Source of the DNA: Deroplatys truncata | Taxonomy: Eukaryota > Arthropoda > Insecta > Mantodea > Mantidae | DNA length: 64,000 nucleotides | Assembly: GCA_030765065.1 (NCBI GenBank) | Contig: CM060975.1 | Location: forward strand, 200,298,007 to 200,362,006 | Direction of reading: 5' to 3' | Part shown: piece after piece, positions 4,447-24,043 of the stretch | How the letters are laid out: every line of letters starts with the position of its first letter | How positions within the stretch are numbered: position 1 is the stretch's first letter | The notes under the pieces: generated by a model | The model's input: only the letters and a program-made list of their open reading frames with translations | What the model was told of the DNA's origin: nothing | Database searches by the model: none | Translations under genes and position numbers: made by a program

Positions 4447-4479
4447 AGTAGCTTATTATAGAGAGAGCTGGGCCACTTT

Positions 4480-5345
4480 TTTGCGTTTATATGGGAAAGG
4501 ATAGGGAAAACGATGGTGGATGCGTAGGAAAATGCGTTTATATGGGGAAGATAGGGACTACGAGGATCGATGCTAGGCTAGATAGACGTTGAAGGAATGA
4601 GGATGTGCTTTATATGAGAGATACGTGGAATACGAGGAGAAGTGTTGGACTAGATAGGGGTTGAGATATGGAATATACATTTATATGGGAAAGATAAGGA
4701 AAACGTGAACAGAGACTAGGATAGACAGATGCTGAAGCAGGAGGAATATGAACATATTTACAGGAGAGATAGGGGATACGTGGAGAGGTACTAGACTATT
4801 CAGGGTTTGAAGGGTAGAGTATGACTTTTTATATGAAGAGACGAGGAAAACGAGGGTATATGCTAGGGTGAGAGAACCTTCAAGGAGGAAAAAATGCGTT
4901 TATATGGGAGAGATAGGGAAAACGAGGAGAGTTCTGAGGTAGAGCAGGGACTGAAGGAGGGAGAGATATGCTTTATACGGCAGAGATAGGGCATGCGAGG
5001 GGAGGTGCTAGTGAAGACAGAGGTTAAGGAGTACGGTATACGTTTATATGAGGAATATATGGAAAACGGGGCAGGCTGTATGATAGACAGAAGCTGGGCC
5101 ACTTTTGCGTTTATATGGCAAAGGATAGGGAAAACGAGGCTAGATGCGTCAGTTCAAGGAGGAAAATGCATTTATAGGGGAGAGATAGGGAATACGAGGG
5201 CTGATGCTAGGCTAGTCAGATGCTAAAGGAGGGAGGGATACGCTTTATACGAGAGAGATAGGGAATACAAGGAAAGATGTTATACTAAACAGGACTTGAA
5301 GGGTAGAATATGGCGTTTTATATGAGCGAGATATCGAACCGAGGA
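4480..5345 (+). repeat. subterminal degenerate ~70-bp tandem repeats (left)
   Basis: About a dozen imperfect units built around TTTATATGGGAGAGATAGGG, then AAAACGAGG, GATGCTAGG and GCTGAAGGAGG. Units vary in length and sequence. The array lies directly inside the left terminus, where protein-primed elements would start replication. Whether it acts in origin recognition is unknown. Frames running through it are repeat artefacts. Confidence 0.75.
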
Positions 5346-5363
5346 GAGGTAACCACGTGTCAA

Positions 5364-6378
5364 GACGTAACACCACGTAACAAAGGAATCACGCTATGTA
5401 ACAAACTGATCATGCTATGTAACAAAGGAATCACGCTATGTAACAAACTGATCATGCTATGTAACAAAGGAATCACGCTATGTAACAAAGGAATCACGCT
5501 ATGTAACAAAGGAATCACGCTATGTAACAAAGGAATCAGGCTATGTAACAAAGAAATCACGCTATGTAACAAACTGATCACGCTATGTAACAAAGGAATC
5601 ACGCTATGTAACAAAGGAATCACGCTATGTAACAAAGGAATCACGCTATGTAACAAAGGAATCACGCTATGTAACAAAGGAATCACGCTATGTAACAAAG
5701 GAATCACGCTATGTAACAAAGAAATCACGCTATGTAACAAACTGATCACGCTATGTAACAAAGGAATCACGCTATGTAACAAAGGAATCACGCTATGTAA
5801 CAAAGGAATCACGCTATGTAACAAAGGAATCACGCTATGTAACAAAGGAATCACGCTATGTAACAAAGGAATCACGCTATGTAACAAAGGAATCGCTCTA
5901 TGTAACAAAGGAATCGCTCTATGTAACAAAGGAATCACGCTATGTAACAAAGGAATCACGCTATGTAACAAAGAAATCACGCTATGTAACAAACTGATCA
6001 CGCTATGTAACAAAGGAATCACGCTATGTAACAAAGGAATCGCTCTATGTAACAAAGGAATCACGCTATGTAACAAAGGAATCACGCTATGTAACAAAGG
6101 AATCACGCTATGTAACAAAGGAATCACGCTATGTAACAAAGGAATCACGCTATGTAACAAAGGAATCGCTCTATGTAACAAACTGATCACGCTATGTAAC
6201 AAAGGAATCACGCTATGTAACAAAGGAATCACGCTATGTAACAAAGGAATCGCTCTATGTAACAAAGGAATCACGCTATGTAACAAGCTCATCACGCTAT
6301 GTAACAGTCTCATCACGCTATGTAACAACACGTACCAAGCATGTAACCAAGTAACAAAACGTAAGAACAACACGTAAC
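5364..6378 (+). repeat. 21-bp minisatellite, ~45 units (left)
   Basis: Tandem unit ATGTAACAAAGGAATCACGC plus T, with recurrent variants (ACTGATCACG, GAAATCACGC, GGAATCGCTC) in a patterned order. Because 21 is a multiple of three and the unit lacks stops in several frames, long frames appear on both strands. They encode only the reiterated unit and I do not regard them as genes. Lies between the subterminal repeats and the polB 3' end. Confidence 0.93.
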
Positions 6379-6835
6379 CAATCTATTGCTAAGTCAATCT
6401 AAACTAATTCATCCTTCATAACTTAGACAATAAGTACGAGAGCCTAGCCCAGATTAACCCGACCAATCCTAAACGTTCCTCTCAGCATCTATTCTACTCG
6501 GTCATCGACTAACCTAATCTGGCTAACCAAAGATAACCTCAACTTTCTTTTAGTGAAATTGCAATGTTTTATTCAGGTTTTATTATTCGAGAGTTTTAAT
6601 TGAAAAGTTTACGTCAACATACCTTTATTTTAGTTCCTTGTAGGCGTCTCTCCCCTTTTTATCTAGGCTTGAGACTAGCACTAGGATTGCTCCTAATGGC
6701 AGGGTTACCACCTTCCCTTCCATCTTCTTCTTTCTTCATCGGACGTCAGCTAGCTACATATACAGCACACGGATAACCTTCATTTTTTAAGATTGTAGAC
6801 TCGCGAGAAAATCTTCATATTCAACTTAAATTCTC
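6379..6835 (-). promoter_or_regulatory. polB 3' flank with polyadenylation signals (left)
   Basis: Downstream of the left polB stop. On the minus strand it carries AATAAA at 6568-6573 and another at 6624-6629, about 210-270 bp past the stop, plausible cleavage signals. The same two signals are present at the mirrored place in the right arm. Confidence 0.45.
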
Positions 6836-9800
6836 TTATACACTACTTGTAATGCTGTAATGTCCATAGGCGTATGTCGTTATTCCGTCCTCAGCAATAA
6901 TTCTTTTATCGTCGTATGGTGTCAATGTAATTTTATTCACTTGTACTGTGGCAAGAGCATGCTGTCGCGACAGGATCAGATTCATGGGCGTTCTGGTAAT
7001 TTCTCCGGTTTTAAGACAGTCAGTATAGCTCTCGAACGTGACGTACTGCTTAATAGCACTACGTTTTATACCTTTAATCTTTTTTATCATTGAACCATCG
7101 ATATCTAGGGCATACATTTTAGGTCGTAGCCCTACAAAGCGTTGAATGATTTTACCATTAGCCTCATCTTTAAATTTCCCAAGTACCTTCTTGTTTAGAG
7201 GTGAATAGCATATATGGCTTGTAGGGTAATCAGCAGTATCTAGGTGCTCAAGAAAACGTAGCTTGTCCTGGTACACATCTTCAGTTGTTACACGATGAAT
7301 GAACGAATCAGTGTCCATATACATAAGCTTCAGGTTTTCAGCTCCATAATAAGGCAACAAAACGTCGTAATGATAGTTATACATTAATGTCTTGGAGATA
7401 TCCAACACACTCATACCAATGTATATAGGCTTGTTGAATACAATCTGACGAGAGGCCATATGTACAGCAGCTAGATTATCAGCATATATCGTCCTGTCGA
7501 TAAACGTAGGCTTGGCGATCAGCTTCTCTAGAGTCTTCTCATTTGTCACCAGACGTATATCCATACGGTTACGCAGGTTGTCCATAGTTTTTCCGAACAT
7601 AGCATTGTTGAACAATTTGTAGAGATCCTTCTCAAAATCATTTCCAGCTTGTTGTCGCAGTCTGTTGTTAAATTCCACATACGGTTTTAACCATCGAGAC
7701 TGTTGGAATTGTAGCACACGATGGATTTTTGTTAACCGTAGTCCATGACTAAGAGCTTGCTTCAAAGCCTTGTAATGCACTACATACTTCTTTCGAGGTC
7801 CTAGATGAGGTATCAGTTTCTTTGTAGATGCCTCCAATGGTTTCATACACTCTGGCAGGAAAGGTAGATCGTTGTGTAGATCGTGAAGTTCTGCAGGATA
7901 CTCGATGTCGACTTCTAATATGTAGCCGTAAGGATCATCTTCTTGTAGTCTTTCTAAGTCAATTTTTTCAGGCGATACCCACTCAAATCCACCATAAGGG
8001 AGAGCGTGACACATTGCCCACCCATATTGGTTATTAGCGTCGTCATATGTGATAAATTGGGTTGGTCTCGACGGATCAAACTTCTCCATATATGTGTTAT
8101 TAGCCTCTGCATACCGATGGGAAACTTGGCATAAACCTCCTCTTATACCTGATTCCACCATGAGTAGTTGATCATAATCCTGTAACAGTTCCAGCTTAAT
8201 TCCAGTGTACAGTAACATGGCGTCCCATGTAAGACCTGGAGAGGTAAAATAATGTGCAGGATCAACTTTGTGTGTTTTGAGGGTTTGCTCTCTGAACGTC
8301 TCAAAGACATCAGCTAGGAGAAGTACATCCGAAGTTAAGTAGAGATCGCTGTACTCTCCCAGGTTTCTCACATTAAACACCTCCCATACATTTTTAGCAT
8401 GATCGTAGTCAGTATCACTAATTTCTTCTTCATTTAATCTATTGTAGAAAGAGTCCTTAGGAGGCAGGCAGGTTTCGTTCAGGGCATCCCATGATGTAAC
8501 AAAATCATATGGAAATACACCCTTACGGGTCATCAACTTCAATTTGTCTTCTCCAAAGTACTTTAGCGTTTCAGGATACGAGGTTAGATTTTTTACCAAC
8601 TTATCCAAGCTTGTACTGAGGAATCGGAAGCTATCCACAAATCGAAGCTTTATATCTCCTACATACTTGGTGAATGAGATATAGCTTTCTTCAGAGTTAG
8701 GAATTACCTCCACACGTTCACTTGTGCAACCCAGCTCCTTAACAATGAAATGTGAGTCATATCCGCTAAGGTTATGCATGAAGACTGGTATATATTTAGG
8801 TGTTTTACAGGCTAAATTACATTCATTATGAAGACTTCCACGATATTCACCGCTGATGTGATCATGGTCGCGTACTTTATAGTTCTCTTCTGTAAAGGGT
8901 TTTCCACACAAGTAGCATGCTGAAGAAGACTCAAAATCCAACTGCTCTTGATCCGTAAGTTTCAGAGGCTTAGCAGATTTGTATATGTCCTCAATCATTT
9001 TTGCAAGAGATGTCAGGTACAGCATAAACTTCTGAGCAGCATCAGCACCACGATACACATAGGGTTGCTTAGGAAGACCAGTTTCGAGATGTTCAACACC
9101 AGATGTAGGCTTCACGTAAACACAGAAGCTCATTGGTGTGTGCTCTTGATAAGGGATTGTATAGGAAGTTTCAGGATTGGGTATACACGTATGGCATGGA
9201 GTGAGAATACTCTCAAAATCAGCATAGATGACATAAGGTAGTTTCAACATCCTTTCAAAATTTTTAAACTGTACGATTGATTTGTCCTTTGTAGGCATAA
9301 CTACCCTCGCAACACCATGTTGGTTACAGATTGATGTATGTTCCTGCAGTTTTTCCAGTCCACTTCGTCCGTATCGATTGTCAAAATGTGTAAAGCAACG
9401 CTTGCAGGTATAAACCCGTCCATTACGGATAGTTTTCTGGCGTCGAACGAGTTTCTCAAAATTCTTTATATATACGTAGTGATGTTTTCCACTGCTGTCA
9501 TTCAATAGTAGCAGGTCGCGATGTTCAGGTAGTTCAATGTCAACAACCTTTATCGGATACACTTCATGCTTCTCATCCAGCCCGAAAACGTTAATAGATA
9601 TCTTGTTAAACTTCTCAAATTTTGGTATTTGAGAAAGTGGAGTAGGATAGGAAACACAGCTGAAGTCGTACTTATCTTGAAGTTTCTTATATTTGCTCAC
9701 CCGTTGTGCATCCTTCTCAACGAATTTGGCCAATACAGAGTACATGAAACATAGCTCATCAGTTAAATTCTGGATGTTAATGCAGGCTTTTCTTGCTTCA

Positions 9801-10489
9801 ACAGAGGGAGGTAGGGGTATGTAGCTACTTCCTCGCAACGGGTTGTACTTGTTAATACGAAGGCGTACCCCTTCCACAGTAAGCAAGGCCCAGCTGCTAC
9901 CCTTAAGCTGAGACTCATCCATTTCAGTAACCAATTTCTTGAATTTCACTTCCAGCATAGAGTCCAGATCAGTTTCTAGGAAAACAGCTTGATTTCTGGT
10001 TTTAAATATCTTGTCACAGGTTTCACCAATACTGTTAACAAATCGACACTCAGCCAGCAGATTAATTTTCAAACTCTTGTGAATACCGAGCTCTTTATGC
10101 ACAGCCTGGATTATCCGCTGTTTTGCTTCATGCAGGTATATATTCAGATCCCTAGCCGATTCACATCGTATAAAATACGATTTCAAACGTCCATGGAATG
10201 AAGTTTCATATTCTTTCATATCACAGTCCTCCATTGTTGACAGCAACTGATGTTTAGTTGGCTCCAATCTTCTTTTCTTCTGAGGGCTGCTTATTTCACA
10301 TATATCTTCGTGTCGCTGCCCCTTATAACCATCTTTGAAGGTTACATTACAATGTTTACATTTGAAGAACTTCTTGCAGCTCATCTCGTGTCTTCTCTTG
10401 TCATAACCTCGGAGGAACTTCTTCCCACATTTTCCGCATGCATATCCAGTAGCGCTTGGAATAATATCCTTATACGCTGAGTTATTCAT
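6836..10489 (-). CDS. polB: protein-primed family-B DNA polymerase (Polinton-type), left copy
   Basis: 1217 codons, ATG start, TAA stop, no intron. It should copy linear element DNA from a protein-bound end. Two C-X2-C-X12-H-X3-C fingers lie at C18/C21/H34/C38 and C44/C47/H60/C64, and a third Cys/His cluster at C362/C365/H384/C388. The 3'-5' exonuclease motifs are visible: YADFES (D424, E426), HNLSGYD (N573, D578) and YLTSD (Y717, D721). A CYLCGK...RDHDH...HNEC segment (525-557) resembles an HNH/endonuclease VII-type metal motif known in Maverick polymerases. Polymerase motifs are YDDANNQYG (D817), KLFNNAMFG (958-966) and MDTDS (D1059, D1061). All catalytic residues look intact. A basic PQKKRR stretch (about 69-74) could be a nuclear signal. 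It reads outward toward the left end. It differs from the right copy at I161 (T there) and T361 (N there). Confidence 0.95.
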   Translation of the reverse strand: MNNSAYKDIIPSATGYACGKCGKKFLRGYDKRRHEMSCKKFFKCKHCNVTFKDGYKGQRHEDICEISSPQKKRRLEPTKHQLLSTMEDCDMKEYETSFHGRLKSYFIRCESARDLNIYLHEAKQRIIQAVHKELGIHKSLKINLLAECRFVNSIGETCDKIFKTRNQAVFLETDLDSMLEVKFKKLVTEMDESQLKGSSWALLTVEGVRLRINKYNPLRGSSYIPLPPSVEARKACINIQNLTDELCFMYSVLAKFVEKDAQRVSKYKKLQDKYDFSCVSYPTPLSQIPKFEKFNKISINVFGLDEKHEVYPIKVVDIELPEHRDLLLLNDSSGKHHYVYIKNFEKLVRRQKTIRNGRVYTCKRCFTHFDNRYGRSGLEKLQEHTSICNQHGVARVVMPTKDKSIVQFKNFERMLKLPYVIYADFESILTPCHTCIPNPETSYTIPYQEHTPMSFCVYVKPTSGVEHLETGLPKQPYVYRGADAAQKFMLYLTSLAKMIEDIYKSAKPLKLTDQEQLDFESSSACYLCGKPFTEENYKVRDHDHISGEYRGSLHNECNLACKTPKYIPVFMHNLSGYDSHFIVKELGCTSERVEVIPNSEESYISFTKYVGDIKLRFVDSFRFLSTSLDKLVKNLTSYPETLKYFGEDKLKLMTRKGVFPYDFVTSWDALNETCLPPKDSFYNRLNEEEISDTDYDHAKNVWEVFNVRNLGEYSDLYLTSDVLLLADVFETFREQTLKTHKVDPAHYFTSPGLTWDAMLLYTGIKLELLQDYDQLLMVESGIRGGLCQVSHRYAEANNTYMEKFDPSRPTQFITYDDANNQYGWAMCHALPYGGFEWVSPEKIDLERLQEDDPYGYILEVDIEYPAELHDLHNDLPFLPECMKPLEASTKKLIPHLGPRKKYVVHYKALKQALSHGLRLTKIHRVLQFQQSRWLKPYVEFNNRLRQQAGNDFEKDLYKLFNNAMFGKTMDNLRNRMDIRLVTNEKTLEKLIAKPTFIDRTIYADNLAAVHMASRQIVFNKPIYIGMSVLDISKTLMYNYHYDVLLPYYGAENLKLMYMDTDSFIHRVTTEDVYQDKLRFLEHLDTADYPTSHICYSPLNKKVLGKFKDEANGKIIQRFVGLRPKMYALDIDGSMIKKIKGIKRSAIKQYVTFESYTDCLKTGEITRTPMNLILSRQHALATVQVNKITLTPYDDKRIIAEDGITTYAYGHYSITSSV

Positions 10490-10618
10490 CTTTATTCTTG
10501 ATGTAATAACGTATTAATCACTGATCAATGAAATGTACGCCTTGATACCACTTTAGAAAGCTGATTATTCCTGGAGAGAACACGATGTTAACACCTCAGA
10601 GATGATCAACAGAATGAA
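10490..10618 (-). promoter_or_regulatory. polB 5' leader and initiator (left)
   Basis: On the minus strand the initiator hexamer TCATTC (10612-10617) matches the arthropod TCAKTY consensus. It predicts a leader of about 126 nt before the ATG at 10489. No upstream long frame competes for translation. Confidence 0.55.
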
Positions 10619-10639
10619 TTTCAATACTCAAGTTCGCTC

Positions 10640-10647
10640 TATTTATA
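10640..10647 (-). promoter_or_regulatory. TATA box of left polB
   Basis: TATAAATA on the minus strand, 32 bp upstream of the initiator A. This is the canonical spacing for an RNA polymerase II core promoter. The sequence is identical at the mirrored place in the right arm, so both copies should be expressed alike. Confidence 0.7.
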
Positions 10648-10924
10648 GAGAAAGCACGAACCTTTTTTAATCAATTATATCCTGATTATTAATACTAAAA
10701 ACGGTGATGAAGCGTGTAAGCTCTTATATATTTCAATTCGTGTTACACTGATGTTCGAGCGTCTCCGTATAGCTTCGTATGTTTAGAGAGAAAGTGTAAA
10801 GTATTGTGAAGATGTTATGTATTGTTCGGCTATAATCGTTCAGATTCGGAGAGCTTGACTGGTGAAGGTGATGAACGATCCGTCAACCGAGCAGGAGGCA
10901 AGCAGTCCCTTCGCGCAACGAAAC

Positions 10925-11640
10925 CTAGATGCAAAAGAAAGAAAATCGTGTTAGATGAGAAACCACTCCAGCATTCGCCTGCAGACCAGGGAAAACCTAA
11001 AAAATATGATGTCAGAGTGATCGACCAACAGGGAAATCAAACAAAAGACCTTAGAAACATATAGGTTAAGATGTAAATCAAATAAAAATGTAATAAAATC
11101 GTGATAGATGAGAACCCACTCAGACATTCGCCTACAGACCATGGAAAACCATGAAAAAATATGTCAGAGTGATCGACCAACAGGGAAATCAAACAAAAGA
11201 CCTTAGAAACATATAGGTTAAGATGTAAATCAAATAAAAATGCAATAAAATCGTGCTAGATGAGAAACCACCCAGACATTCGCCTACAGACCAGGCAAAG
11301 CCATGAAAAAAATCAAAGGGCTGAGCGACTGACGGATAGAGGGTGCAACCGACAGAGAAATCAAGCAAAAGGTTTCTAGAGACAAAAAAAGATGCAATTG
11401 AAATGGAATCATGATAGCAAATACCACTCCAGCATTCGCCTGCAGACCAGGGAAAACCTAAAAAATATGATGTCAGAGTGATCGACCAACAGGGAAATCA
11501 AACAAAAGACCTTAGAAACATATAGGTTAAGATGTAAATCAAATAAAAATGCAATAAAATCGTGATAGATGAGAACCCACTCAGACATTCGCCTGCAGAC
11601 CAGGGAAAATCATGAGAAACGTAAGGTCAGAGTAAACAAT
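10925..11640 (+). repeat. ~153-bp tandem repeats, about 4.5 units (left)
   Basis: The marker CATTCGCCTGCAGACCAGGG recurs at about 10973, 11126, 11278, 11435 and 11588, spaced 152-157 bp, with substitutions between units. The array lies upstream of polB and is transcriptionally divergent from it. The largest frame across its start opens with TTG, not ATG, so I do not call a gene. Confidence 0.85.
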
Positions 11641-13248
11641 TGATTGAAATCTAACCCCTGAACCCTAGAAATTCACGACAACTGAAAAACGAAACCCAGA
11701 TGTAGAGGAAATTTTGTACACCCTTGACGAAAAAACCCCGTCCGCTGGGGAAGTAACCTTTAAGTATACAATTGACATCTGTCATACCGATAAGGGACGG
11801 TTTGAAAGGCTTCCTAATAGCTCTACGCAAGTCACCTGAGCAAACACAGGAAATTCCTAAACCAGACAATTACAAGCCTGCTAAAACATTTTTTCCTACA
11901 ATAAGTAATTTAAATTCTACATGAAGATTATTCCAAAAAGTTTCATATCTCTTATTTCCTTCAATAAAATATCGAATATGACTCTAGCACCAGGGAAAAA
12001 AAATTAAACGGAGGGAAGCGATATTTTCTTTTTACGCTGAAATTATAATTAAATGCATAGCGTTCTTGCAGGAAAACCCCGCCCATATAGATTATAGGAA
12101 TGGATTCTGTTTAAAACATGTATTTTCACGCGGGGTGTATAGATTGTATCAGTAAGCATTCGTGACTATTACAATTATTTCCAAGTATTATTTTAAAAAG
12201 GGTTGTCTTATTCTCTTAGTAAACATAGGTCGAGAACGTTTTTTTACTTGGTATTTAGGGGCGTTCTTGCAGGAAAACACTGCCCATATAGATTATAGGA
12301 ATGGACTCTGTTTAAAACATGTATTTTTCACGCGTGGTGTATAGATTGTCTCAGTAAGCATTCGTGACTATTACAATTATCGCCAAGTATTATTTTACAA
12401 AAAGATTGGCTTATTCTCTTAGTAAACATAGGTTGAAATCGTTTTTTAAACAACTCTCCATTCGAGAGATATTTTTTGATTATTCCAGCAGAGAGAGAGA
12501 GAGAGATCGAGCCATATTTGTTTAAAAAAGCTTTTTTTTTCATTCACAGGAAATCTTCGAGAAAATTCGAGGAATTATTCAGTTGTACACCCTTGCTAAA
12601 ATAGTTTGTATACCCTTTGAAGAATGTTTACCTGGCTGGCAGAGTCTACCTCTGTCGACAGGCTGTCGCCTGCACATCTTGGACATTTATACATTAGGGT
12701 GGCTATTGTGCTTTAAAATGGGATAGCTATGTTTTAAGCTTACCACAAAAAAATTTTTCCCGATAATTAATATAATTCTACATGAAGAATATTAATGATT
12801 AAGTTTTCAATTAAACGTGTACTGTATAGATTCTGCACTTAAACATTCGACTGTATCTTTGTCATTATTTAAATACTCGCGTACAAGAATTGCAAACATG
12901 ATATCAAAAATTGTAGAAGTTTTTCCACCCTTATTTAATTAAAATTCATGTATATACTCTATTATTTAGCGATTTTTTCAATAATTCTCATGTACATCAT
13001 TCGTCAAAAAATCAGTGTACAATACGCATTTTTATACGTTTTAATGTTCGTTTATTTTTAAAACAGCTGCATTGGCCTCTAATTACGAGCAATAATTTTT
13101 TTCAGATTTACTCAGATGTGTAGCTTGTAGAATCGAATTAGGAAATATTTTAATAAATGTATTGTATTTTTTAGGTTAAAGCATCTACATTTTTAAAGTT
13201 AGCATGCCCGTTATTTGTATTCAGCGTAAAGATATTCATATATCATTT
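11641..13248. other. AT-rich non-coding arm segment with a 201-bp tandem duplication (left)
   Basis: No credible gene. A block starting GCGTTCTTGCAGGAAAAC is repeated at 12060 and 12261 (period 201 bp), including CCCATATAGATTATAGGAAT and a TCAGTAAGCATTCGTGAC stretch. The rest is AT-rich. The sequence is mirrored at about 15409-17016 in the other arm. Confidence 0.6.
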
Positions 13249-14036
13249 TTAAATCCCTCTTCTTAAATATAATGTATCGCAATCCATTTTTAAAATCAAA
13301 TCATAAATGCGTTTAATGCATATAATGGATGTCTTCATATACCCAATATGGCTGCCTTCACGTGTCGGGAAGCTAACATGGCGGCAGTCATCTTTTAGAA
13401 GCATACATTTCATGTCGATAAAGTAGCGAGCGACCGACAGGGTGAGAGAACTTCTTTCAGCGGCCAACAGATTGCGGTAAAGTAAGCCGTGCCATGTGGA
13501 ACCAAACACTGTGAAAGAGACAGAGGGTGGGGGTAGGCGGAAGAGACGCGCTGGGAGAGAGGTGAGGCCCGCCAGTTCGCCTCAGCGCGTCGTAAGGCTC
13601 GGACCTATACGTAGTAGCATGCACACCAACGCAGCTCGCGCCAGCGTCTTACGTAATTTAGTTTTTACGCTCACTATACCATTTAAATATACATTCATCT
13701 AAGAGATATAATATTCGTCAGGATGTCAGATGTCCAAATATACATAACAAAGAAATTAGTTACTGATATAAATGTAATATCGTACGTTCACCATTTTATT
13801 TTTAATTACTTTTTTTATTTTATTTGGGGATGAATTTGTATTCATGTCACGGGATTCAATCCTAGTCCTCCAGCCCGACTTGGAACAACAATCAATAACG
13901 AGCTACAATCCAAGGATATAATCGGTAATAATACAAATATTTTGATAAAGACCATCAAATGAAAAGGCCTTGGAAACGTATGTATTTCCCCTCACTTCCC
14001 CTCTTCCCCCACCACACAGTAGAAAATAAATGAGAG
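13249..14036. other. inner left arm with a CpG-richer island
   Basis: The 13370-13640 stretch is richer in CG dinucleotides than its surroundings. Overlapping short frames on both strands open with GTG rather than ATG and resemble nothing I know. It could be a control region. The end of the highly conserved arm lies at 14036. Confidence 0.4.
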
Positions 14037-14276
14037 TTCCAGCACACAAAGGATTTGCCGCCATCTGATAAGGTTCTTTGATCTATGCCGCTAGCCCCGC
14101 CCCCTCCCTTTGTGTGCTACTATTTGCCGCCCGGACGTGTGCCGCTAGCTCCTCCCTCTTCCCTTTGTGTGCTGATCTAATGCCGCCAGTGTCTGTGCCA
14201 CTAGCCCCGCCCCCTCCCCATGTGGTCTGGTCACGTGCTGGCGGCCACCCCTCCCCCACCCCTTCCCTTGTGACCC

Positions 14277-14294: not shown

Positions 14295-14349
14295 ACACCC
14301 AATCCCCCTACCGAATCCTTTCTAATCCTATCCCGTACACTGGGCGCGC

Positions 14350-14405
14350 CCTCTCTTTGGGCTCTACTCCCACACTGGCCTCGGTATTGGAGTAGAGCAG
14401 AGAGG
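14350..14405. repeat. central hairpin
   Basis: GCTCTACTCC (14361-14370) pairs with GGAGTAGAGC (14389-14398) around an 18-nt loop. After a 4-nt bulge the stem extends with CCTCTCT (14350-14356) against AGAGAGG (14399-14405). It sits almost exactly midway between the two internal AGTAGCTT ends. Confidence 0.7.
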
Positions 14406-14420
14406 AGGGGGTATCATGCT

Positions 14421-14438
14421 CCAGTAGCTTTTAAGGGT
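14421..14438 (+). repeat. internal inverted end, right (CCAGTAGCTTTTAAGGGT)
   Basis: Partner of 14277-14294. From 14423 it reads AGTAGCTTTTAA, sharing AGTAGCTT with the outer terminus AGTAGCTTATTA. It therefore looks like the inner terminus of a right monomer. Confidence 0.65.
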
Positions 14439-15408
14439 GAAACCACAAAGGTTAAGTGTTTTCACGTGTGCTATTCTTTCACCGCATATCAGAGATACAG
14501 GACAATGCATTATTGTTCTCATCGTAAATGGCGGTGTCGGAATAGCAAAAAGCGGGGGTGGGAGTCGGCGGCATAGAAGAAAGGAACTTATCAGTGGTTG
14601 CATCGGCTTTGAAGCTGCGTTCTCTCATTTATTTTCTACTGTGTGGTGGGGGAAGAGGGGAAGTGAGGGGAAATACATACGTTTCCAAGGCCTTTTCATT
14701 TGATGGTCTTTATCAAAATATTTGAATTATTACCGATTATATCCTTGGATTGTAGCTCGTTATTGATTGTTGTTCCAAGTCGGCTGGAGGACTAGGATTG
14801 AATCCCGTAACATGAATACAAATTCATCCCCAAATAAAATAAAAAAGTAATTAAAAATAAAATGGTGAACGTACGATATTACATTTATATCAGTAACTAA
14901 TTTCTTTGTTATGTATATTTGGACATCTGACATCCTGACGAATATTATATCTCTTAGATGAATGTATATTTAAATGGTATAGTGAGCGTAAAAACTAAAT
15001 TACGTAAGACGCTGGCGCGAGCTGCGTTGGTGTGCATGCTACTACGTATAGGTCCGAGCCTTACGACGCGCTGAGGCGAACTGGCGGGCCTCACCTCTCT
15101 CCCAGCGCGTCTATTCCGCCTACCCCTACCCTCTGTCTCTTTCACAGTGTTTGGTTCCACATGGCACGGCTTACTTTACCGCAATCTGTTGGCCGCTGAA
15201 AGAAGTTCTCTCACCCTGTCGGTCGCTCGCTACTTTATCGACATGAAATGTATGCTTCTAAAAGATGACTGCCGCCATGTTAGCTTCCCGACACGTGAAG
15301 GCAGCCATATTGGGTATATGAAGACATCCATTATATGCATTAAACGCATTTATGATTTGATTTTAAAAATGGATTGCGATACATTATATTTAAGAAGAGG
15401 GATTTAAA

Positions 15409-17016
15409 AATGATATATGAATATCTTTACGCTGAATACAAATAACGGGCATGCTAACTTTAAAAATGTAGATGCTTTAACCTAAAAAATACAATACATT
15501 TATTAAAACATTTCCTAATTCGAATCTACAAGCTACACATCTGAGTAAATCTGAAAAAAATTATTGCTCGTAATTAGAGGCAAATGCAGCGGTTTTAAAA
15601 ATAAACGAACATTAAAACGTATAAAAATGCGTATTGTACACTGATTTTTTGACGAATGATGTACATGAGAATTATTGAAAAAATCGCTAAATAATAGAGT
15701 ATATACATGAATTTTAATTAAATAAGGGTGGAAAAACTTCTACAATTTTTGATATCATGTTTGCAATTCTTGTACGCGAGTATTTAAATAATGACAAATA
15801 TACAGTCGAATGTTTAAGTGCAGAATCTATACAGTACACGTTTAATTGAAAACTTAATCATTAATATTCTTCATGTAGAATTATATTAATTATCGGGAAA
15901 AATTTTTTTGTGGTAAGCTTAAAACATAGCTATCCCATTTTAAAGCACAATAGCCACCCTAATGTATAAATGTCCAAGATGTGCAGGCGACAGCCTGTCG
16001 ACAGAGGTAGACTCTGCCAGCCAGGTAAACATTCTTCAAAGGGTATACAAACTATTTTAGCAAGGGTGTACAACTGAATAATTCCTCGAATTTTCTCGAA
16101 GATTTCCTGTGAATGAAAAAAAAAAGCTTTTTTAAACAAATATGGCTCGATCTCTCTCTCTCTCTCTGCTGGAATAATCAAAAAATATCTCTCGAATGGA
16201 GAGTTGTTTAAAAAACGATTTCAACCTATGTTTACTAAGAGAATAAGCCAATCTTTTTGTAAAATAATACTTGGCGATAATTGTAATAGTCACGAATGCT
16301 TACTGAGACAATCTATACACCACGCGTGAAAAATACATGTTTTAAACAGAGTCCATTCCTATAATCTATATGGGCAGTGTTTTCCTGCAAGAACGCCCCT
16401 AAATACCAAGTAAAAAAACGTTCTCGACCTATGTTTACTAAGAGAATAAGACAACCCTTTTTAAAATAATACTTGGAAATAATTGTAATAGTCACGAATG
16501 CTTACTGATACAATCTATACACCCCGCGTGAAAATACATGTTTTAAACAGAATCCATTCCTATAATCTATATGGGCGGGGTTTTCCTGCAAGAACGCTAT
16601 GCATTTAATTATAATTTCAGCGTAAAAAGAAAATATCGCTTCCCTCCGTTTAATTTTTTTTCCCTGGTGCTAGAGTCATATTCGATATTTTATTGAAGGA
16701 AATAAGAGATATGTAACTTTTTGGAATAATCTTCATGTAGAATTTAAATTACTTATTGTAGGAAAAAATGTTTTAGCAGGCTTGTAATTGTCTGGTTTAG
16801 GAATTTCCTGTGTTTGCTCAGGTGACTTGCGTAGAGCTATTAGGAAGCCTTTCAAACCGTCCCTTATCGGTATGACAGATGTCAATTGTATACTTAAAGG
16901 TTACTTCCCCAGCGGACGGGGTTTTTTCGTCAAGGGTGTACAAAATTTCCTCTACATCTGGGTTTCGTTTTTCAGTTGTCGTGAATTTCTAGGGTTCAGG
17001 GGTTAGATTTCAATCA
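15409..17016. other. AT-rich non-coding arm segment (right)
   Basis: Mirror of 11641-13248, including the 201-bp tandem duplication (about 16397 and 16598 on this side). A (CT)-rich run lies near 16150. No gene is supported. Confidence 0.55.
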
Positions 17017-17732
17017 ATTGTTTACTCTGACCTTACGTTTCTCATGATTTTCCCTGGTCTGCAGGCGAATGTCTGAGTGGGTTCTCATCTATCACGATTT
17101 TATTGCATTTTTATTTGATTTACATCTTAACCTATATGTTTCTAAGGTCTTTTGTTTGATTTCCCTGTTGGTCGATCACTCTGACATCATATTTTTTAGG
17201 TTTTCCCTGGTCTGCAGGCGAATGCTGGAGTGGTATTTGCTATCATGATTCCATTTCAATTGCATCTTTTTTTGTCTCTAGAAACCTTTTGCTTGATTTC
17301 TCTGTCGGTTGCACCCTCTATCCGTCAGTCGCTCAGCCCTTTGATTTTTTTCATGGCTTTGCCTGGTCTGTAGGCGAATGTCTGGGTGGTTTCTCATCTA
17401 GCACGATTTTATTGCATTTTTATTTGATTTACATCTTAACCTATATGTTTCTAAGGTCTTTTGTTTGATTTCCCTGTTGGTCGATCACTCTGACATATTT
17501 TTTCATGGTTTTCCATGGTCTGTAGGCGAATGTCTGAGTGGGTTCTCATCTATCACGATTTTATTACATTTTTATTTGATTTACATCTTAACCTATATGT
17601 TTCTAAGGTCTTTTGTTTGATTTCCCTGTTGGTCGATCACTCTGACATCATATTTTTTAGGTTTTCCCTGGTCTGCAGGCGAATGCTGGAGTGGTTTCTC
17701 ATCTAACACGATTTTCTTTCTTTTGCATCTAG
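17017..17732 (-). repeat. ~153-bp tandem repeats (right)
   Basis: Mirror of the left array: the reverse complement of the CATTCGCCTGCAG marker recurs every ~153 bp. Same unit order as on the left, with at most occasional base changes. Confidence 0.85.
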
Positions 17733-18009
17733 GTTTCGTTGCGCGAAGGGACTGCTTGCCTCCTGCTCGGTTGACGGATCGTTCATCACCTTCACCAGTC
17801 AAGCTCTCCGAATCTGTACGATTATAGCCGAACAATACATAACATCTTCACAATACTTTACACTTTCTCTCTAAACATACGAAGCTATACGGAGACGCTC
17901 GAACATCAGTGTAACACGAATTGAAATATATAAGAGCTTACACGCTTCATCACCGTTTTTAGTATTAATAATCAGGATATAATTGATTAAAAAAGGTTCG
18001 TGCTTTCTC

Positions 18010-18017
18010 TATAAATA
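18010..18017 (+). promoter_or_regulatory. TATA box of right polB
   Basis: TATAAATA, 32 bp upstream of the A of the TCATTC initiator at 18040-18045, giving a 126-nt leader before the ATG at 18168. TATA, spacing and initiator are the same in the left arm. Confidence 0.7.
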
Positions 18018-18039
18018 GAGCGAACTTGAGTATTGAAAT

Positions 18040-18045
18040 TCATTC
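18040..18045 (+). promoter_or_regulatory. initiator of right polB (TCATTC)
   Basis: Fits the arthropod initiator consensus TCAKTY at the proper distance from the TATA box. Predicted transcription start at 18042. Confidence 0.6.
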
Positions 18046-18167
18046 TGTTGATCATCTCTGAGGTGTTAACATCGTGTTCTCTCCAAGAATAATCAGCTTT
18101 CTAAAGTGGTATCAAGGCGTACATTTCATTGATCAGTGATTAATACGTTATTACATCAAGAATAAAG

Positions 18168-21100
18168 ATGAATAACTCAGCGTATAAGGATATTATTCCA
18201 AGCGCTACTGGATATGCATGCGGAAAATGTGGGAAGAAGTTCCTCCGAGGTTATGACAAGAGAAGACACGAGATGAGCTGCAAGAAGTTCTTCAAATGTA
18301 AACATTGTAATGTAACCTTCAAAGATGGTTATAAGGGGCAGCGACACGAAGATATATGTGAAATAAGCAGCCCTCAGAAGAAAAGAAGATTGGAGCCAAC
18401 TAAACATCAGTTGCTGTCAACAATGGAGGACTGTGATATGAAAGAATATGAAACTTCATTCCATGGACGTTTGAAATCGTATTTTATACGATGTGAATCG
18501 GCTAGGGATCTGAATATATACCTGCATGAAGCAAAACAGCGGATAATCCAGGCTGTGCATAAAGAGCTCGGTATTCACAAGAGTTTGAAAATTAATCTGC
18601 TGGCTGAGTGTCGATTTGTTAACAGTATTGGTGAAACCTGTGACAAGACATTTAAAACCAGAAATCAAGCTGTTTTCCTAGAAACTGATCTGGACTCTAT
18701 GCTGGAAGTGAAATTCAAGAAATTGGTTACTGAAATGGATGAGTCTCAGCTTAAGGGTAGCAGCTGGGCCTTGCTTACTGTGGAAGGGGTACGCCTTCGT
18801 ATTAACAAGTACAACCCGTTGCGAGGAAGTAGCTACATACCCCTACCTCCCTCTGTTGAAGCAAGAAAAGCCTGCATTAACATCCAGAATTTAACTGATG
18901 AGCTATGTTTCATGTACTCTGTATTGGCCAAATTCGTTGAGAAGGATGCACAACGGGTGAGCAAATATAAGAAACTTCAAGATAAGTACGACTTCAGCTG
19001 TGTTTCCTATCCTACTCCACTTTCTCAAATACCAAAATTTGAGAAGTTTAACAAGATATCTATTAACGTTTTCGGGCTGGATGAGAAGCATGAAGTGTAT
19101 CCGATAAAGGTTGTTGACATTGAACTACCTGAACATCGCGACCTGCTACTATTGAATGACAGCAGTGGAAAGCATCACTACGTATATATAAAGAATTTTG
19201 AGAAACTCGTTCGACGCCAGAAAACTATCCGTAATGGACGGGTTTATAACTGCAAGCGTTGCTTTACACATTTTGACAATCGATACGGACGAAGTGGACT
19301 GGAAAAACTGCAGGAACATACATCAATCTGTAACCAACATGGTGTTGCGAGGGTAGTTATGCCTACAAAGGACAAATCAATCGTACAGTTTAAAAATTTT
19401 GAAAGGATGTTGAAACTACCTTATGTCATCTATGCTGATTTTGAGAGTATTCTCACTCCATGCCATACGTGTATACCCAATCCTGAAACTTCCTATACAA
19501 TCCCTTATCAAGAGCACACACCAATGAGCTTCTGTGTTTACGTGAAGCCTACATCTGGTGTTGAACATCTCGAAACTGGTCTTCCTAAGCAACCCTATGT
19601 GTATCGTGGTGCTGATGCTGCTCAGAAGTTTATGCTGTACCTGACATCTCTTGCAAAAATGATTGAGGACATATACAAATCTGCTAAGCCTCTGAAACTT
19701 ACGGATCAAGAGCAGTTGGATTTTGAGTCTTCTTCAGCATGCTACTTGTGTGGAAAACCCTTTACAGAAGAGAACTATAAAGTACGCGACCATGATCACA
19801 TCAGCGGTGAATATCGTGGAAGTCTTCATAATGAATGTAATTTAGCCTGTAAAACACCTAAATATATACCAGTCTTCATGCATAACCTTAGCGGATATGA
19901 CTCACATTTCATTGTTAAGGAGCTGGGTTGCACAAGTGAACGTGTGGAGGTAATTCCTAACTCTGAAGAAAGCTATATCTCATTCACCAAGTATGTAGGA
20001 GATATAAAGCTTCGATTTGTGGATAGCTTCCGATTCCTCAGTACAAGCTTGGATAAGTTGGTAAAAAATCTAACCTCGTATCCTGAAACGCTAAAGTACT
20101 TTGGAGAAGACAAATTGAAGTTGATGACCCGTAAGGGTGTATTTCCCTATGATTTTGTTACATCATGGGATGCCCTGAACGAAACCTGCCTGCCTCCTAA
20201 GGACTCTTTCTACAATAGATTAAATGAAGAAGAAATTAGTGATACTGACTACGATCATGCTAAAAATGTATGGGAGGTGTTTAATGTGAGAAACCTGGGA
20301 GAGTACAGCGATCTCTACTTAACTTCGGATGTACTTCTCCTAGCTGATGTCTTTGAGACGTTCAGAGAGCAAACCCTCAAAACACACAAAGTTGATCCTG
20401 CACATTATTTTACCTCTCCAGGTCTTACATGGGACGCCATGTTACTGTACACTGGAATTAAGCTGGAACTGTTACAGGATTATGATCAACTACTCATGGT
20501 GGAATCAGGTATAAGAGGAGGTTTATGCCAAGTTTCCCATCGGTATGCAGAGGCTAATAACACATATATGGAGAAGTTTGATCCGTCGAGACCAACCCAA
20601 TTTATCACATATGACGACGCTAATAACCAATATGGGTGGGCAATGTGTCACGCTCTCCCTTATGGTGGATTTGAGTGGGTATCGCCTGAAAAAATTGACT
20701 TAGAAAGACTACAAGAAGATGATCCTTACGGCTACATATTAGAAGTCGACATCGAGTATCCTGCAGAACTTCACGATCTACACAACGATCTACCTTTCCT
20801 GCCAGAGTGTATGAAACCATTGGAGGCATCTACAAAGAAACTGATACCTCATCTAGGACCTCGAAAGAAGTATGTAGTGCATTACAAGGCTTTGAAGCAA
20901 GCTCTTAGTCATGGACTACGGTTAACAAAAATCCATCGTGTGCTACAATTCCAACAGTCTCGATGGTTAAAACCGTATGTGGAATTTAACAACAGACTGC
21001 GACAACAAGCTGGAAATGATTTTGAGAAGGATCTCTACAAATTGTTCAACAATGCTATGTTCGGAAAAACTATGGACAACCTGCGTAACCGTATGGATAT

Positions 21101-21821
21101 ACGTCTGGTGACAAATGAGAAGACTCTAGAGAAGCTGATCGCCAAGCCTACGTTTATCGACAGGACGATATATGCTGATAATCTAGCTGCTGTACATATG
21201 GCCTCTCGTCAGATTGTATTCAACAAGCCTATATACATTGGTATGAGTGTGTTGGATATCTCCAAGACATTAATGTATAACTATCATTACGACGTTTTGT
21301 TGCCTTATTATGGAGCTGAAAACCTGAAGCTTATGTATATGGACACTGATTCGTTCATTCATCGTGTAACAACTGAAGATGTGTACCAGGACAAGCTACG
21401 TTTTCTTGAGCACCTAGATACTGCTGATTACCCTACAAGCCATATATGCTATTCACCTCTAAACAAGAAGGTACTTGGGAAATTTAAAGATGAGGCTAAT
21501 GGTAAAATCATTCAACGCTTTGTAGGGCTACGACCTAAAATGTATGCCCTAGATATCGATGGTTCAATGATAAAAAAGATTAAAGGTATAAAACGTAGTG
21601 CTATTAAGCAGTACGTCACGTTCGAGAGCTATACTGACTGTCTTAAAACCGGAGAAATTACCAGAACGCCCATGAATCTGATCCTGTCGCGACAGCATGC
21701 TCTTGCCACAGTACAAGTGAATAAAATTACATTGACACCATACGACGATAAAAGAATTATTGCTGAGGACGGAATAACGACATACGCCTATGGACATTAC
21801 AGCATTACAAGTAGTGTATAA
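18168..21821 (+). CDS. polB: protein-primed family-B DNA polymerase (Polinton-type), right copy
   Basis: Second intact 1217-codon copy, ATG to TAA, reading outward toward the right end. It has the same domain order as the left copy: paired C2HC fingers (18-64), a third Cys/His cluster (362-388), exonuclease motifs at 424-426, 572-578 and 717-721, the HNH-like metal motif (525-557) and polymerase motifs A (817), B (958-966) and C (1059-1061). Against the left copy it has T161 for I161 and N361 for T361, the latter directly before C362 of the third cluster; neither touches a catalytic residue. Two intact copies in one element imply recent origin, selection or homogenisation. Best matches should be Polinton/Maverick or adintovirus-like POLB of animals. 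Whether it is expressed cannot be told from sequence. Confidence 0.95.
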   Translation: MNNSAYKDIIPSATGYACGKCGKKFLRGYDKRRHEMSCKKFFKCKHCNVTFKDGYKGQRHEDICEISSPQKKRRLEPTKHQLLSTMEDCDMKEYETSFHGRLKSYFIRCESARDLNIYLHEAKQRIIQAVHKELGIHKSLKINLLAECRFVNSIGETCDKTFKTRNQAVFLETDLDSMLEVKFKKLVTEMDESQLKGSSWALLTVEGVRLRINKYNPLRGSSYIPLPPSVEARKACINIQNLTDELCFMYSVLAKFVEKDAQRVSKYKKLQDKYDFSCVSYPTPLSQIPKFEKFNKISINVFGLDEKHEVYPIKVVDIELPEHRDLLLLNDSSGKHHYVYIKNFEKLVRRQKTIRNGRVYNCKRCFTHFDNRYGRSGLEKLQEHTSICNQHGVARVVMPTKDKSIVQFKNFERMLKLPYVIYADFESILTPCHTCIPNPETSYTIPYQEHTPMSFCVYVKPTSGVEHLETGLPKQPYVYRGADAAQKFMLYLTSLAKMIEDIYKSAKPLKLTDQEQLDFESSSACYLCGKPFTEENYKVRDHDHISGEYRGSLHNECNLACKTPKYIPVFMHNLSGYDSHFIVKELGCTSERVEVIPNSEESYISFTKYVGDIKLRFVDSFRFLSTSLDKLVKNLTSYPETLKYFGEDKLKLMTRKGVFPYDFVTSWDALNETCLPPKDSFYNRLNEEEISDTDYDHAKNVWEVFNVRNLGEYSDLYLTSDVLLLADVFETFREQTLKTHKVDPAHYFTSPGLTWDAMLLYTGIKLELLQDYDQLLMVESGIRGGLCQVSHRYAEANNTYMEKFDPSRPTQFITYDDANNQYGWAMCHALPYGGFEWVSPEKIDLERLQEDDPYGYILEVDIEYPAELHDLHNDLPFLPECMKPLEASTKKLIPHLGPRKKYVVHYKALKQALSHGLRLTKIHRVLQFQQSRWLKPYVEFNNRLRQQAGNDFEKDLYKLFNNAMFGKTMDNLRNRMDIRLVTNEKTLEKLIAKPTFIDRTIYADNLAAVHMASRQIVFNKPIYIGMSVLDISKTLMYNYHYDVLLPYYGAENLKLMYMDTDSFIHRVTTEDVYQDKLRFLEHLDTADYPTSHICYSPLNKKVLGKFKDEANGKIIQRFVGLRPKMYALDIDGSMIKKIKGIKRSAIKQYVTFESYTDCLKTGEITRTPMNLILSRQHALATVQVNKITLTPYDDKRIIAEDGITTYAYGHYSITSSV

Positions 21822-22278
21822 GAGAATTTAAGTTGAATATGAAGATTTTCTCGCGAGTCTACAATCTTAAAAAATGAAGGTTATCCGTGTGCTGTATATA
21901 TAGCTAGCTGACGTCCGATGAAGAAAGAAGAAGATGGAAGGGAAGGTGGTAACCCTGCCATTAGGAGCAATCCTAGTGCTAGTCTCAAGCCTAGATAAAA
22001 AGGGGAGAAACGCCTACAAGGAACTAAAATAAAGGTATGTTGACGTAAACTTTTCAATTAAAACTCTCGAATAATGAAACCTGAATAAAACATTGCAATT
22101 TCACTAAAAGAAAGTTGAGGTTATCTTTGGTTAGCCAGATTAGGTTAGTCGATGACCGAGTAGAATAGATGCTGAGAGGAACGTTTAGGATTGGTCGGGT
22201 TAATCTGGGCTAGGCTCTCGTACTTATTGTCTAAGTTATGAAGGATGAATTAGTTTAGATTGACTTAGCAATAGATTG
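21822..22278 (+). promoter_or_regulatory. polB 3' flank with polyadenylation signals (right)
   Basis: AATAAA at 22028-22033 and 22084-22089 follow the stop by about 210-265 bp. This stretch is the mirror of 6379-6835 and holds no gene. Confidence 0.45.
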
Positions 22279-23126
22279 GTTACGTGTTGTTCTTACGTTT
22301 TGTTACTTGGTTACATGCTTGGTACGTGTTGTTACATAGCGTGATGAGACTGTTACATAGCGTGATGAGCTTGTTACATAGCGTGATTCCTTTGTTACAT
22401 AGAGCGATTCCTTTGTTACATAGCGTGATTCCTTTGTTACATAGCGTGATTCCTTTGTTACATAGCGTGATCAGTTTGTTACATAGAGCGATTCCTTTGT
22501 TACATAGCGTGATTCCTTTGTTACATAGCGTGATTCCTTTGTTACATAGCGTGATTCCTTTGTTACATAGCGTGATTCCTTTGTTACATAGCGTGATTCC
22601 TTTGTTACATAGAGCGATTCCTTTGTTACATAGCGTGATTCCTTTGTTACATAGCGTGATCAGTTTGTTACATAGCGTGATTTCTTTGTTACATAGCGTG
22701 ATTCCTTTGTTACATAGCGTGATTCCTTTGTTACATAGAGCGATTCCTTTGTTACATAGAGCGATTCCTTTGTTACATAGCGTTAATCCCTATGTTACAT
22801 AGCGTGATTCCTTTGTTACATAGCGTGATTCCTTTGTTACATAGCGTGATTCCTTTGTTACATAGCGTGATTCCTTTGTTACATAGCGTGATTCCTTTGT
22901 TACATAGCGTGATCAGTTTGTTACATAGCGTGATTTCTTTGTTACATAGCCTGATTCCTTTGTTACATAGCGTGATTCCTTTGTTACATAGCGTGATTCC
23001 TTTGTTACATAGCGTGATTCCTTTGTTACATAGCATGATCAGTTTGTTACATAGCGTGATTCCTTTGTTACATAGCATGATCAGTTTGTTACATAGCGTG
23101 ATTCCTTTGTTACGTGGTGTTACGTC
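22279..23126 (-). repeat. 21-bp minisatellite, ~37 units (right)
   Basis: Reverse complement of the left array with the same order of variant units, except that about eight units are missing at a scar near 22779-22800 reading CGTTAATCCCTATG. The 1-bp change there breaks the repeat frame, so the frames seen on the left are split here. This supports their being artefacts and not genes. Confidence 0.92.
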
Positions 23127-23144
23127 TTGACACGTGGTTACCTC

Positions 23145-24012
23145 TCCTCGGTTCGATATCTCGCTCATATAAAACGCCATATTCTACCCTTCAAGTCCTG
23201 TTTAGTATAACATCTTTCCTTGTATTCCCTATCTCTCTCGTATAAAGCGTATCCCTCCCTCCTTTAGCATCTGACTAGCCTAGCATCAGCCCTCGTATTC
23301 CCTATCTCTCCCCTATAAACGCATTTTCCTCCTTGAACTGACGCATCTAGCCTCGTTTTCCCTATCCTTTGCCATATAAACGCAAAAGTGTCCCAGCTTC
23401 TGTCTATCATACAGCCTGCCCCGTTTTCCATATATTACTCATATAAACGTATACCGTACTCCTTAACCTCTGTCTTCACTAGCACCTCCCCTCGCATGCC
23501 CTATCTCTGCCGTATAAAGCATATCTCTCCCTCCTTCAGTCCCTGCTCTACCTCAGAACTCTCCTCGTTTTCCCTATCTCTCCCATATAAACGCATTTTT
23601 TCCTCCTTGAAGGTTCTCTCACCCTAGCATATACCCTCGTTTTCCTCGTCTCTTCATATAAAAAGTCATACTCTACCCTTCAAACCCTGAATAGTCTAGT
23701 ACCTCTCCACGTATCCCCTATCTCTCCTGTAAATATGTTCATATTCCTCCTGCTTCAGCATCTGTCTATCCTAGTCTCTGTTCACGTTTTCCTTATCTTT
23801 CCCATATAAATGTATATTCCATATCTCAACCCCTATCTAGTCCAACACTTCTCCTCGTATTCCACGTATCTCTCATATAAAGCACATCCTCATTCCTTCA
23901 ACGTCTATCTAGCCTAGCATCGATCCTCGTAGTCCCTATCTTCCCCATATAAACGCATTTTCCTACGCATCCACCATCGTTTTCCCTATCCTTTCCCATA
24001 TAAACGCAAAAA
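23145..24012 (-). repeat. subterminal degenerate ~70-bp tandem repeats (right)
   Basis: Mirror of 4480-5345, with units containing CCCTATCTCTCCCATATAAA and CCTCCTTCAGC. It adjoins the right terminus. Confidence 0.75.
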
Positions 24013-24043
24013 AGTGGCCCAGCTCTCTCTATAATAAGCTACT

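Follow-up and report, generated by a model that had tools for sequence, protein, structure and literature searches.

In linear genomes such as those of phage phi29 and adenovirus, a terminal protein serves as the starting point for replication at the ends, one strand is displaced in the process, and the identical ends let the displaced strand form a panhandle. The inverted repeats of such genomes, and those of Polintons, are usually regarded as short origins. As far as the cited excerpts go, Polintons have a core of PolB, integrase, protease, and ATPase (PMC3671162), intact vertebrate Mavericks have terminal inverted repeats (TIRs) of 46–1,447 bp, AGT-type ends, and 6-bp duplications (PMC8097293), and adintoviruses encode a hexon and an rve integrase with a chromodomain (PMC11071296). 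Asymmetric snapback genomes of adeno-associated virus (AAV), according to the excerpted account, consist of a self-complementary strand with a single-stranded loop and carry the terminal repeat at the duplex end (PMC8235507). Here, we describe an element in a 64,000-nucleotide stretch of the genome of the mantis Deroplatys truncata (GCA_030765065.1, contig CM060975.1, positions 200,298,007 to 200,362,006; hereafter the window), in which the inverted repeat is nearly the whole element: two multi-kilobase arms, each with a polB gene, surround a short asymmetric centre (Table 1). Among the copies seen, the palindrome is the usual form of a multi-copy transposon family for which no gene other than PolB was found, and the best explanation, favoured though by no means secure, is a palindromic transposon of Polinton- or adintovirus-like descent that replicates through a hairpin cycle and obtains its integrase in trans.

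Self-BLAST and arm alignment placed the 9.6- and 9.4-kb inverted arms and the 585-bp centre at the same coordinates as a first-pass annotation made from the letters alone. Its claims of a complete 1,217-codon polB of protein-primed type in each arm and of AG...CT ends were also borne out—that is, both frames are intact, and AGTAG ends are present in the window element (AGTAGCTTATTATAG and CTATAATAAGCTACT) and in its relatives. The inverted repeat makes up 97% of the element. With the 21-bp array excluded, the arms differ by 22 substitutions in 8,636 aligned columns (99.75% identity) and, additionally, by three single-base indels.

The palindrome transposes as a single unit with a 6-bp duplication, and the inverted dimer suspected from the annotation is real and was inserted in one piece. 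The target duplication of the window element matches at five of six bases (GACGCT/AACGCT). When joined without the element, the flanks align across the junction to positions 46292–46454 of the window (~80% over 178 bp) and, also across the junction, to a second empty paralogous site at 840–892; since they match two empty sites, the element landed in a repeat as one piece. The element at C11:50.86 Mb lies in the same host repeat, at an identical position and in the same orientation, with GACGCT on both sides and a left flank 93% identical to that of the window element over 142 bp. The GACGCT on both sides favours the 6-bp reading over a 4-bp duplication of ACGC with TAGTAG ends, which fits the window alone and was rejected. 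The two elements at this shared repeat position differ in end subtype, and the coincidence fits either target preference, with a second insertion into a related repeat copy, or a target history common to both. In the window element and nine of the 13 other polB pairs, both ends could be located; among these 10 elements, the duplication is perfect over 6 bp in six, matches at five of six bases in three (the window, C9:145, and C7:231), and is lacking in one. Three end subtypes were distinguished, with both ends of one element belonging to the same subtype in 10 of 10 cases, the right end at C14:157, which diverges past its first 17 bases, being counted as the same subtype.

The assembly comprises 4.29 Gb in 818 contigs, with the palindromic loci lying on contigs of 134–707 Mb; the genome searches scored the best candidates only, and the counts exclude copies too divergent to be scored. 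A search with the PolB of the window element scored 38 of 30,350 first-look candidates. The 38 matches are full length or at most one end residue short and at least 97% identical, 30 of them having no in-frame stop, and consist of 14 outward-facing pairs (window included) and 10 singles, with no inward or tandem pair among them. Both polB frames are stop-free in 11 of the 14 pairs. Of the 13 other pairs, 11 have the window centre, in either orientation, midway between their polB genes, and two pairs with short gaps (C9:145.46 and C11:50.86) show arm sequence there instead. Inverted arm sequence was present on the far side of all 10 singles, the centre being found at the sampled place in six and not seen there in four. 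All 24 polB loci, the window included, are palindromic, some with unequal arms.

Searches with other parts of the element gave the same picture. With the centre as query, 40 of 2,446 candidates were scored and 41 matches listed, of which 34 do not coincide with any of the 38 polB copies; inverted arms stand on both sides in 15 of the 16 further centre stretches whose flanks were sampled. With the outer end, 40 of 5,868 candidates were scored, and 34 of the 40 matches form 17 pairs spanning 13.6–20.3 kb, with the end outermost on both sides in 17 of 17; six ends are unpaired, one of which was looked at. Ten of these pairs were sampled at the midpoint, six showing the centre and four arm sequence. 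Of five such elements sampled in both arms, four have polB inverted, with 98.6–99.8% identity within an element and, in one case, just 88% to the window; in the fifth, the arm samples consist of N and array, and the centre is present. At least 43 distinct loci are inverted (24 found by polB, 15 by the centre, and four by the outer ends), and no monomer was found among the loci sampled by these three routes. Thus, further copies of the 585-bp centre, which the first-pass annotation had proposed to seek in this genome, are many, and its concern that all other copies might be monomers is contradicted by the 24 polB loci. A one-off dimer was rejected in view of the palindromes with a shared centre at many loci, and an origin by template switching is, as a recent accident, unsupported for the same reason. 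At C7:94987220-94990952 (stretch L118), two centres of the same orientation, separated by 2.4 kb and both accompanied by inverted arm sequence, were labelled a nested or recombined copy.

The similarity of the window arms ends abruptly at 14036/14622. Within the centre, the outer 64 bp are ~70% alike when inverted (score 18 vs 4.1 ± 1.8 in shuffles, with 0 of 1,000 as high), and an exact inverted repeat of 20 bp stands at the heart (0 of 500 shuffles as high), with the DNA fold of 14262-14460 (−44.1 vs −22.7 ± 3.0 in 50 shuffles) indicating a strong hairpin. Between margin and heart, comparison in inverted register reveals no similarity (225 of 500 shuffles as high). The centre, initially described as unique, is indeed asymmetric over 585 bp, but its margins and heart retain inverted similarity. 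A sharp boundary between stem and loop, with margins 68–79% alike, was found in all 12 elements compared, and drifted margins of the same pattern in 12 elements indicate that the inverted duplication is old and that its innermost part has drifted. The arms are kept alike up to nearly one boundary. Furthermore, the sharing of the asymmetric centre by 11 of the 13 other pairs and 15 further loci indicates that the palindrome predates the insertion in the window, with the centre being passed on through transposition.

Some loci depart from this common form. At C1:232.69 Mb (232690839-232691839), the centre is bordered on either side by its right margin, with 417-bp arms that are 99.76% identical and reach within ~85 bp of the middle; this is possibly a re-folded centre of the kind expected from folding at the central hairpin. 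Other turn-round points were observed at C10:96.75 (no loop; 14016 joined to 13896), C1:181.24 (13982 to 8118), and C15:107.66 (13905 to 8038). These rare points, and most of all the copy at C1:232.69 Mb, look like snapback, and internal deletion may explain some of them.

Comparisons of the two arms showed that they evolve in concert, with the centre following weakly. In the 600 bp adjoining polB, the arms of the 14 paired elements are 0–3 bases apart, a mean of 0.18%, vs 2.3% under random pairing, and 0 of 10,000 permutations were as low. The elements at C16:162.5 and C16:326.9 Mb are at least 4.4% from the rest, with their own arms 0 and 2 of 600 bases apart. The mate arm is strictly the closest in seven of the 14 elements, and a tree of this stretch is poorly resolved (one starred fork of 16). 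Next to the centre, at 23 loci, the arms differ by 0.56% within loci vs 5.9% at random (0 of 10,000 as low), this comparison omitting the centres C9:145, C11:50, C3:101, and C16:206 and the stretches L118, L126, and L129. At 24 loci, with C9:145, C11:50, C16:206, L118, L126, and L129 omitted, the distance matrices of the left and right arms correlate with r = 0.93 (0 of 2,000 permutations as high), and those of arm and loop with r = 0.34 and 0.28 (23 and 80 of 2,000 as high). Divergence between loci is 5.2% in the loop and 6.5–6.8% in the arms.

The two window polB genes differ at four nucleotides and two amino acids. The gene is under purifying selection, with omega of 0.025–0.118 in eight between-element comparisons of 400-codon pieces. 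Exonuclease and polymerase motifs are conserved across 20 aligned PolB rows. The Pfam family PF03175 (DNA_pol_B_2) gives no score on the window PolB and scores just two of the 20 rows of the aligned clade, so that Pfam-based surveys may miss much of it. Homologues numbered 2,873 among 7,975 scored candidates; in the best 120 of these, the named organisms are invertebrates, mostly insects, and the PolB of the Ladona dragonfly adintovirus (P0022) is included, with 49% identity over residues 400–1217. An AlphaFold2 model of the same residues (predicted local distance difference test score 92.7) was matched by Foldseek to phi29 DNA polymerase at the top (E 1.5e-19), with nine phi29 chains preceding other polymerases, although a profile search of the PDB by sequence gave no match. 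Pfam gave no OTU match on the window PolB; the structure model spans residues 400–1217. Protein priming by this polymerase is suggested by its homology.

Outside polB and the 21-bp array, which hold the only longer frames, 24 stop-to-stop frames of 61–110 residues in the left arm and centre were searched. No integrase was found in them at E up to 0.1, a negative that allows for a decayed or spliced gene, and no packaging ATPase, protease, or capsid gene was found in the same frames. Neither a hexon nor a chromodomain integrase was found beside PolB in the frames of the window element. PAS_13 and F-box matches in two of the 24 frames were below the cut-off.

Other polB families of the same genome served as a control. 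In a PF03175 search, 76 of 11,882 candidates were scored, with 152 matches, and the 150 rows taken merge into 76 polB loci; no outward pair was found within 12 kb among them, and one lies at 14.4 kb. This pair (C4:11.09/11.105 Mb, two polB 14.4 kb apart) was rejected as a second palindromic family, its left polB sitting in a monomer with its own TIRs of ~150 bp. Two complete ordinary Polintons were read, C4:11080734-11096023 (15.3 kb) and C3:71460895-71478142 (17.3 kb), with TIRs of ~153 bp, perfect 6-bp duplications (CATGTT and GTTAAC), and ends AGTAGTAT of the AGTAGT type. Both contain an rve-chromodomain integrase, one has an A32-type ATPase match, and the C3 element carries a dUTPase. The window PolB gave no tblastn match (E 1e-10) to the fetched stretches of other polB families. 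Since ordinary Polintons coexist with the palindromic family, they could lend it an integrase. Beyond this genome, a single-sequence scan of IMG/VR gave no palindromic relative, and an alignment scan gave two loci seen in part (15,552 of 17,398 and 13,561 of 15,128 bp). In the parts seen, one has a 48-bp inverted repeat and the other none, neither being palindromic; one of the two has an rve integrase and an A32-type ATPase. No palindromic Polinton was recognised among the titles and abstract openings listed from the open-access literature searched; PMC12368964, in which matching wording does occur, deals with inversions in cod.

In the proposed hairpin cycle, the replicating unit would be a linear duplex whose two ends carry the same protein-primed origin. 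A single strand, released by strand displacement, would fold over nearly its full length into a 9.4–9.6-kb hairpin with an unpaired 585-nt loop; the sequence does let the strand fold on itself, as the annotation had pointed out, and the replication topology suggested there is plausible. The duplex end of the hairpin would be the origin again, where PolB would begin, displace the stem, and copy round the loop, restoring the full palindrome; with the stem end a complete origin, a single kind of end together with its own polymerase would suffice for the element. In the stem, mismatches between the arms would be exposed and corrected, keeping the arms identical, and the unpaired loop, exempt from correction, would retain its old asymmetry. 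A stem that is repaired and a loop that is not would predict concerted arms, a sharp boundary, and an independent loop. Integration would be catalyzed in trans, most simply by the integrase of complete Polintons of the same genome, and the founding inverted duplication probably arose by snapback (self-priming) inside a Polinton-type monomer. Whether the cycle is obligate—with one origin type, one gene, a stem whose proofreading in each cycle would hold the two polB copies identical and functional, and a drifting loop, in a PolB-only replicon that borrows its integrase—we regard as evenly balanced.

Several observations weigh against the hairpin cycle. All of the evidence comes from integrated copies in one assembly, with no extrachromosomal or hairpin form seen, and gene conversion in the chromosome could likewise homogenise the arms. 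For seven of the 14 elements, some other sequence is at least as close as the mate arm, because young copies are near-identical or tie. Between the window arms, polB has fewer differences (four in 3,654 columns) than the remaining sequence (18 in 4,982; binomial p = 0.029), and their density rises toward the centre (nine in the last 1,235 columns, p = 0.002), but the clustering is weak (Kolmogorov–Smirnov p = 0.06, with small counts), and the polB deficit is non-significant without the stretch near the centre (four of 13, p = 0.27). Target sites could be read in 10 of the 14 paired elements, the other four being C16:326.9, C16:11.8, C4:196.0, and C16:162.5, and the copy at C16:206.66 Mb (C16:206657384-206677895) has no target duplication, its flanks being perfect inverted repeats of at least 327 bp on each side; this copy may be a later inverted duplication or a fold-back artefact of assembly. 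At C7:161.53 (161527962-161529314, stretch L129), an arm lies within 400 bp of the centre on just one side, and the copy was labelled truncated or rearranged. No terminal protein was identified by Pfam, the one means by which it was looked for. The ends of the two complete Polintons share only AGTAG with the window element, and the integrase donor was not pinned down among the elements checked.

The main rival, ranked second, is that the arms of this same family are homogenised by gene conversion, either in the chromosome or between linear extrachromosomal copies, with conventional strand displacement and no hairpin. Concerted arms and a sharp boundary where homology drops are equally expected on that account, and the weak correlation of loop and arm distances means that arms do recombine; we nevertheless hold it to be rather unlikely. 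Differences acquired after insertion persist, as seen in the 22 substitutions of the window element and in stop codons confined to one arm at C7:231.2 and C4:196.0 Mb, which indicates that chromosomal conversion is not fast. Moreover, the elements at C16:162.5 and C16:326.9 are at dS 0.08–0.10 from the others, with 0 and 2 differences per 600 bp between their own arms, and few variable columns of the 600-bp alignment (e.g., 231, 271, 538, and 589) split the arms of an element.

In another explanation, every palindrome would form afresh shortly before integration, a monomer being doubled by snapback or end-to-end copying in the manner of AAV asymmetric snapback genomes, and the other turn-round points at C10:96.75, C1:181.24, and C15:107.66, with the doubled right margin at C1:232.69, are what such a process could leave; the same centre, present midway in 11 of 13 other pairs and also at 15 additional loci with inverted arms, points instead to a single origin for these, and with no monomer among 24 polB loci we find repeated formation improbable. 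An assembly artefact, either a fold-back or a mis-joined single Polinton, is possibly what is seen at C16:206.66 Mb, with its inverted-repeat flanks and missing duplication. As a general account it is extremely improbable, since the window flanks join at unoccupied paralogous sites, nine of the 10 elements with both ends have matching duplications (six perfect and three at five of six bases), the arms carry private substitutions, and 43 distinct loci are inverted. Hardly more credible is the insertion of two independent monomers side by side, head to head: AGTAGCTT of the outer ends does recur in the 20-bp inverted repeat of the centre, but only one target duplication, lying beyond the outer ends, and one empty site are seen, and the same arrangement with the same centre occurs at many places.

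The features of the window element are collected in Table 1. The unit of its 21-bp array, GTAACAAAGGAATCACGCTAT, is found in both arms between polB and the outer end, and an ORF-like frame across the array (5310-6377) was rejected as a gene, being translated repeat. Elsewhere in the window, direct tandem repeats in a 2,255-bp register, 98–99% identical, occupy 29321-36569, with a related inverted copy at 44.3–46.0 kb. Fragments of a non-long-terminal-repeat retrotransposon (endonuclease, reverse transcriptase, and zf-RVT) lie on the minus strand at 56269-59011, the reverse transcriptase at 57.2–58.3 kb having distant relatives only.

Table 1. Coordinates of the palindromic element and its parts in the window (ORF, open reading frame; TRF, Tandem Repeats Finder).
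Feature	Position	Strand	Basis
Whole palindromic element	4447..24043	.	self-BLAST and arm alignment; one-unit insertion by empty sites
Left target-site duplication GACGCT	4441..4446	+	sequence; empty sites hold GGGACGCTAAG
Right target-site duplication AACGCT, one mismatch	24044..24049	+	sequence
Left arm, 9,590 bp	4447..14036	+	self-BLAST, arm alignment
Right arm, 9,422 bp, inverted copy of left arm	14622..24043	-	self-BLAST, arm alignment
Asymmetric centre (loop), 585 bp, common to other copies	14037..14621	+	
Left margin of centre, ~70% alike to inverted right margin	14037..14100	+	
Right margin of centre	14555..14621	-	
Left half of 20-bp exact inverted repeat, holds AGTAGCTT of outer ends	14276..14295	+	
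Right half of 20-bp exact inverted repeat	14420..14439	-	
Left outer end (AGTAG...) with degenerate subterminal repeats	4447..5376	+	sequence
21-bp tandem array, 45.3 copies	5377..6328	+	TRF
21-bp tandem array, 37.3 copies	22329..23113	-	TRF
polB, 1,217 aa, zinc-finger-like N-terminus, endonuclease VII motif (PF02945), phi29-type polymerase	6836..10489	-	ORF, Pfam
Second polB, 1,217 aa	18168..21821	+	ORF; structure model
152-bp tandem repeat, left arm	10942..11633	+	
152-bp tandem repeat, right arm	17024..17715	-	

How the ends of protein-primed genomes stay identical is an old question that the palindromic family makes testable, with a homogenised stem and an unhomogenised loop in one molecule constituting a natural experiment on end identity. 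PolB under selection where capsid and integrase genes were not found may represent a replicon stage between virus and transposon. In addition, the family supplies dozens of giant palindromes to a genome, which bears on genome stability and assembly.

Giant palindromes formed from one end of a linear replicon are known in SYREC adenovirus genomes and in the palindromic ribosomal DNA minichromosomes of Tetrahymena; to our knowledge, neither is a chromosomally integrating multi-copy transposon family. The window element resembles Polintons and Mavericks in its phi29-type PolB, AGTAG...CTACT ends, 6-bp duplication, multi-kilobase size, and insertion as a unit. It differs from them in having two polB genes, with no integrase, ATPase, protease, or capsid gene found, and in inverted repeats of 9.4–9.6 kb (97% of the element) vs ~153 bp in ordinary Polintons of the same genome and the 46–1,447 bp given for vertebrate Mavericks in the excerpted account (PMC8097293). 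Thus, the description of the element as Polinton-like holds for its polymerase, ends, and duplication, but not for gene content and repeat architecture, the other core genes not having been found, and it is better termed a Polinton-derived palindromic variant than a strict Polinton. The element likewise shares a homologous PolB with adintoviruses (49% identity to that of the Ladona dragonfly), unlike which no hexon or integrase was found in it. AAV asymmetric snapback genomes, as far as the excerpted description extends, likewise have a self-complementary strand with a loop, the terminal repeat lying at its duplex end. They occur as subgenomic particles of a rolling-hairpin virus, whereas here the palindrome is the inherited, transposing form of an element that has a polymerase of protein-primed type. 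On that description, they may be regarded as the closest functional analogue found.

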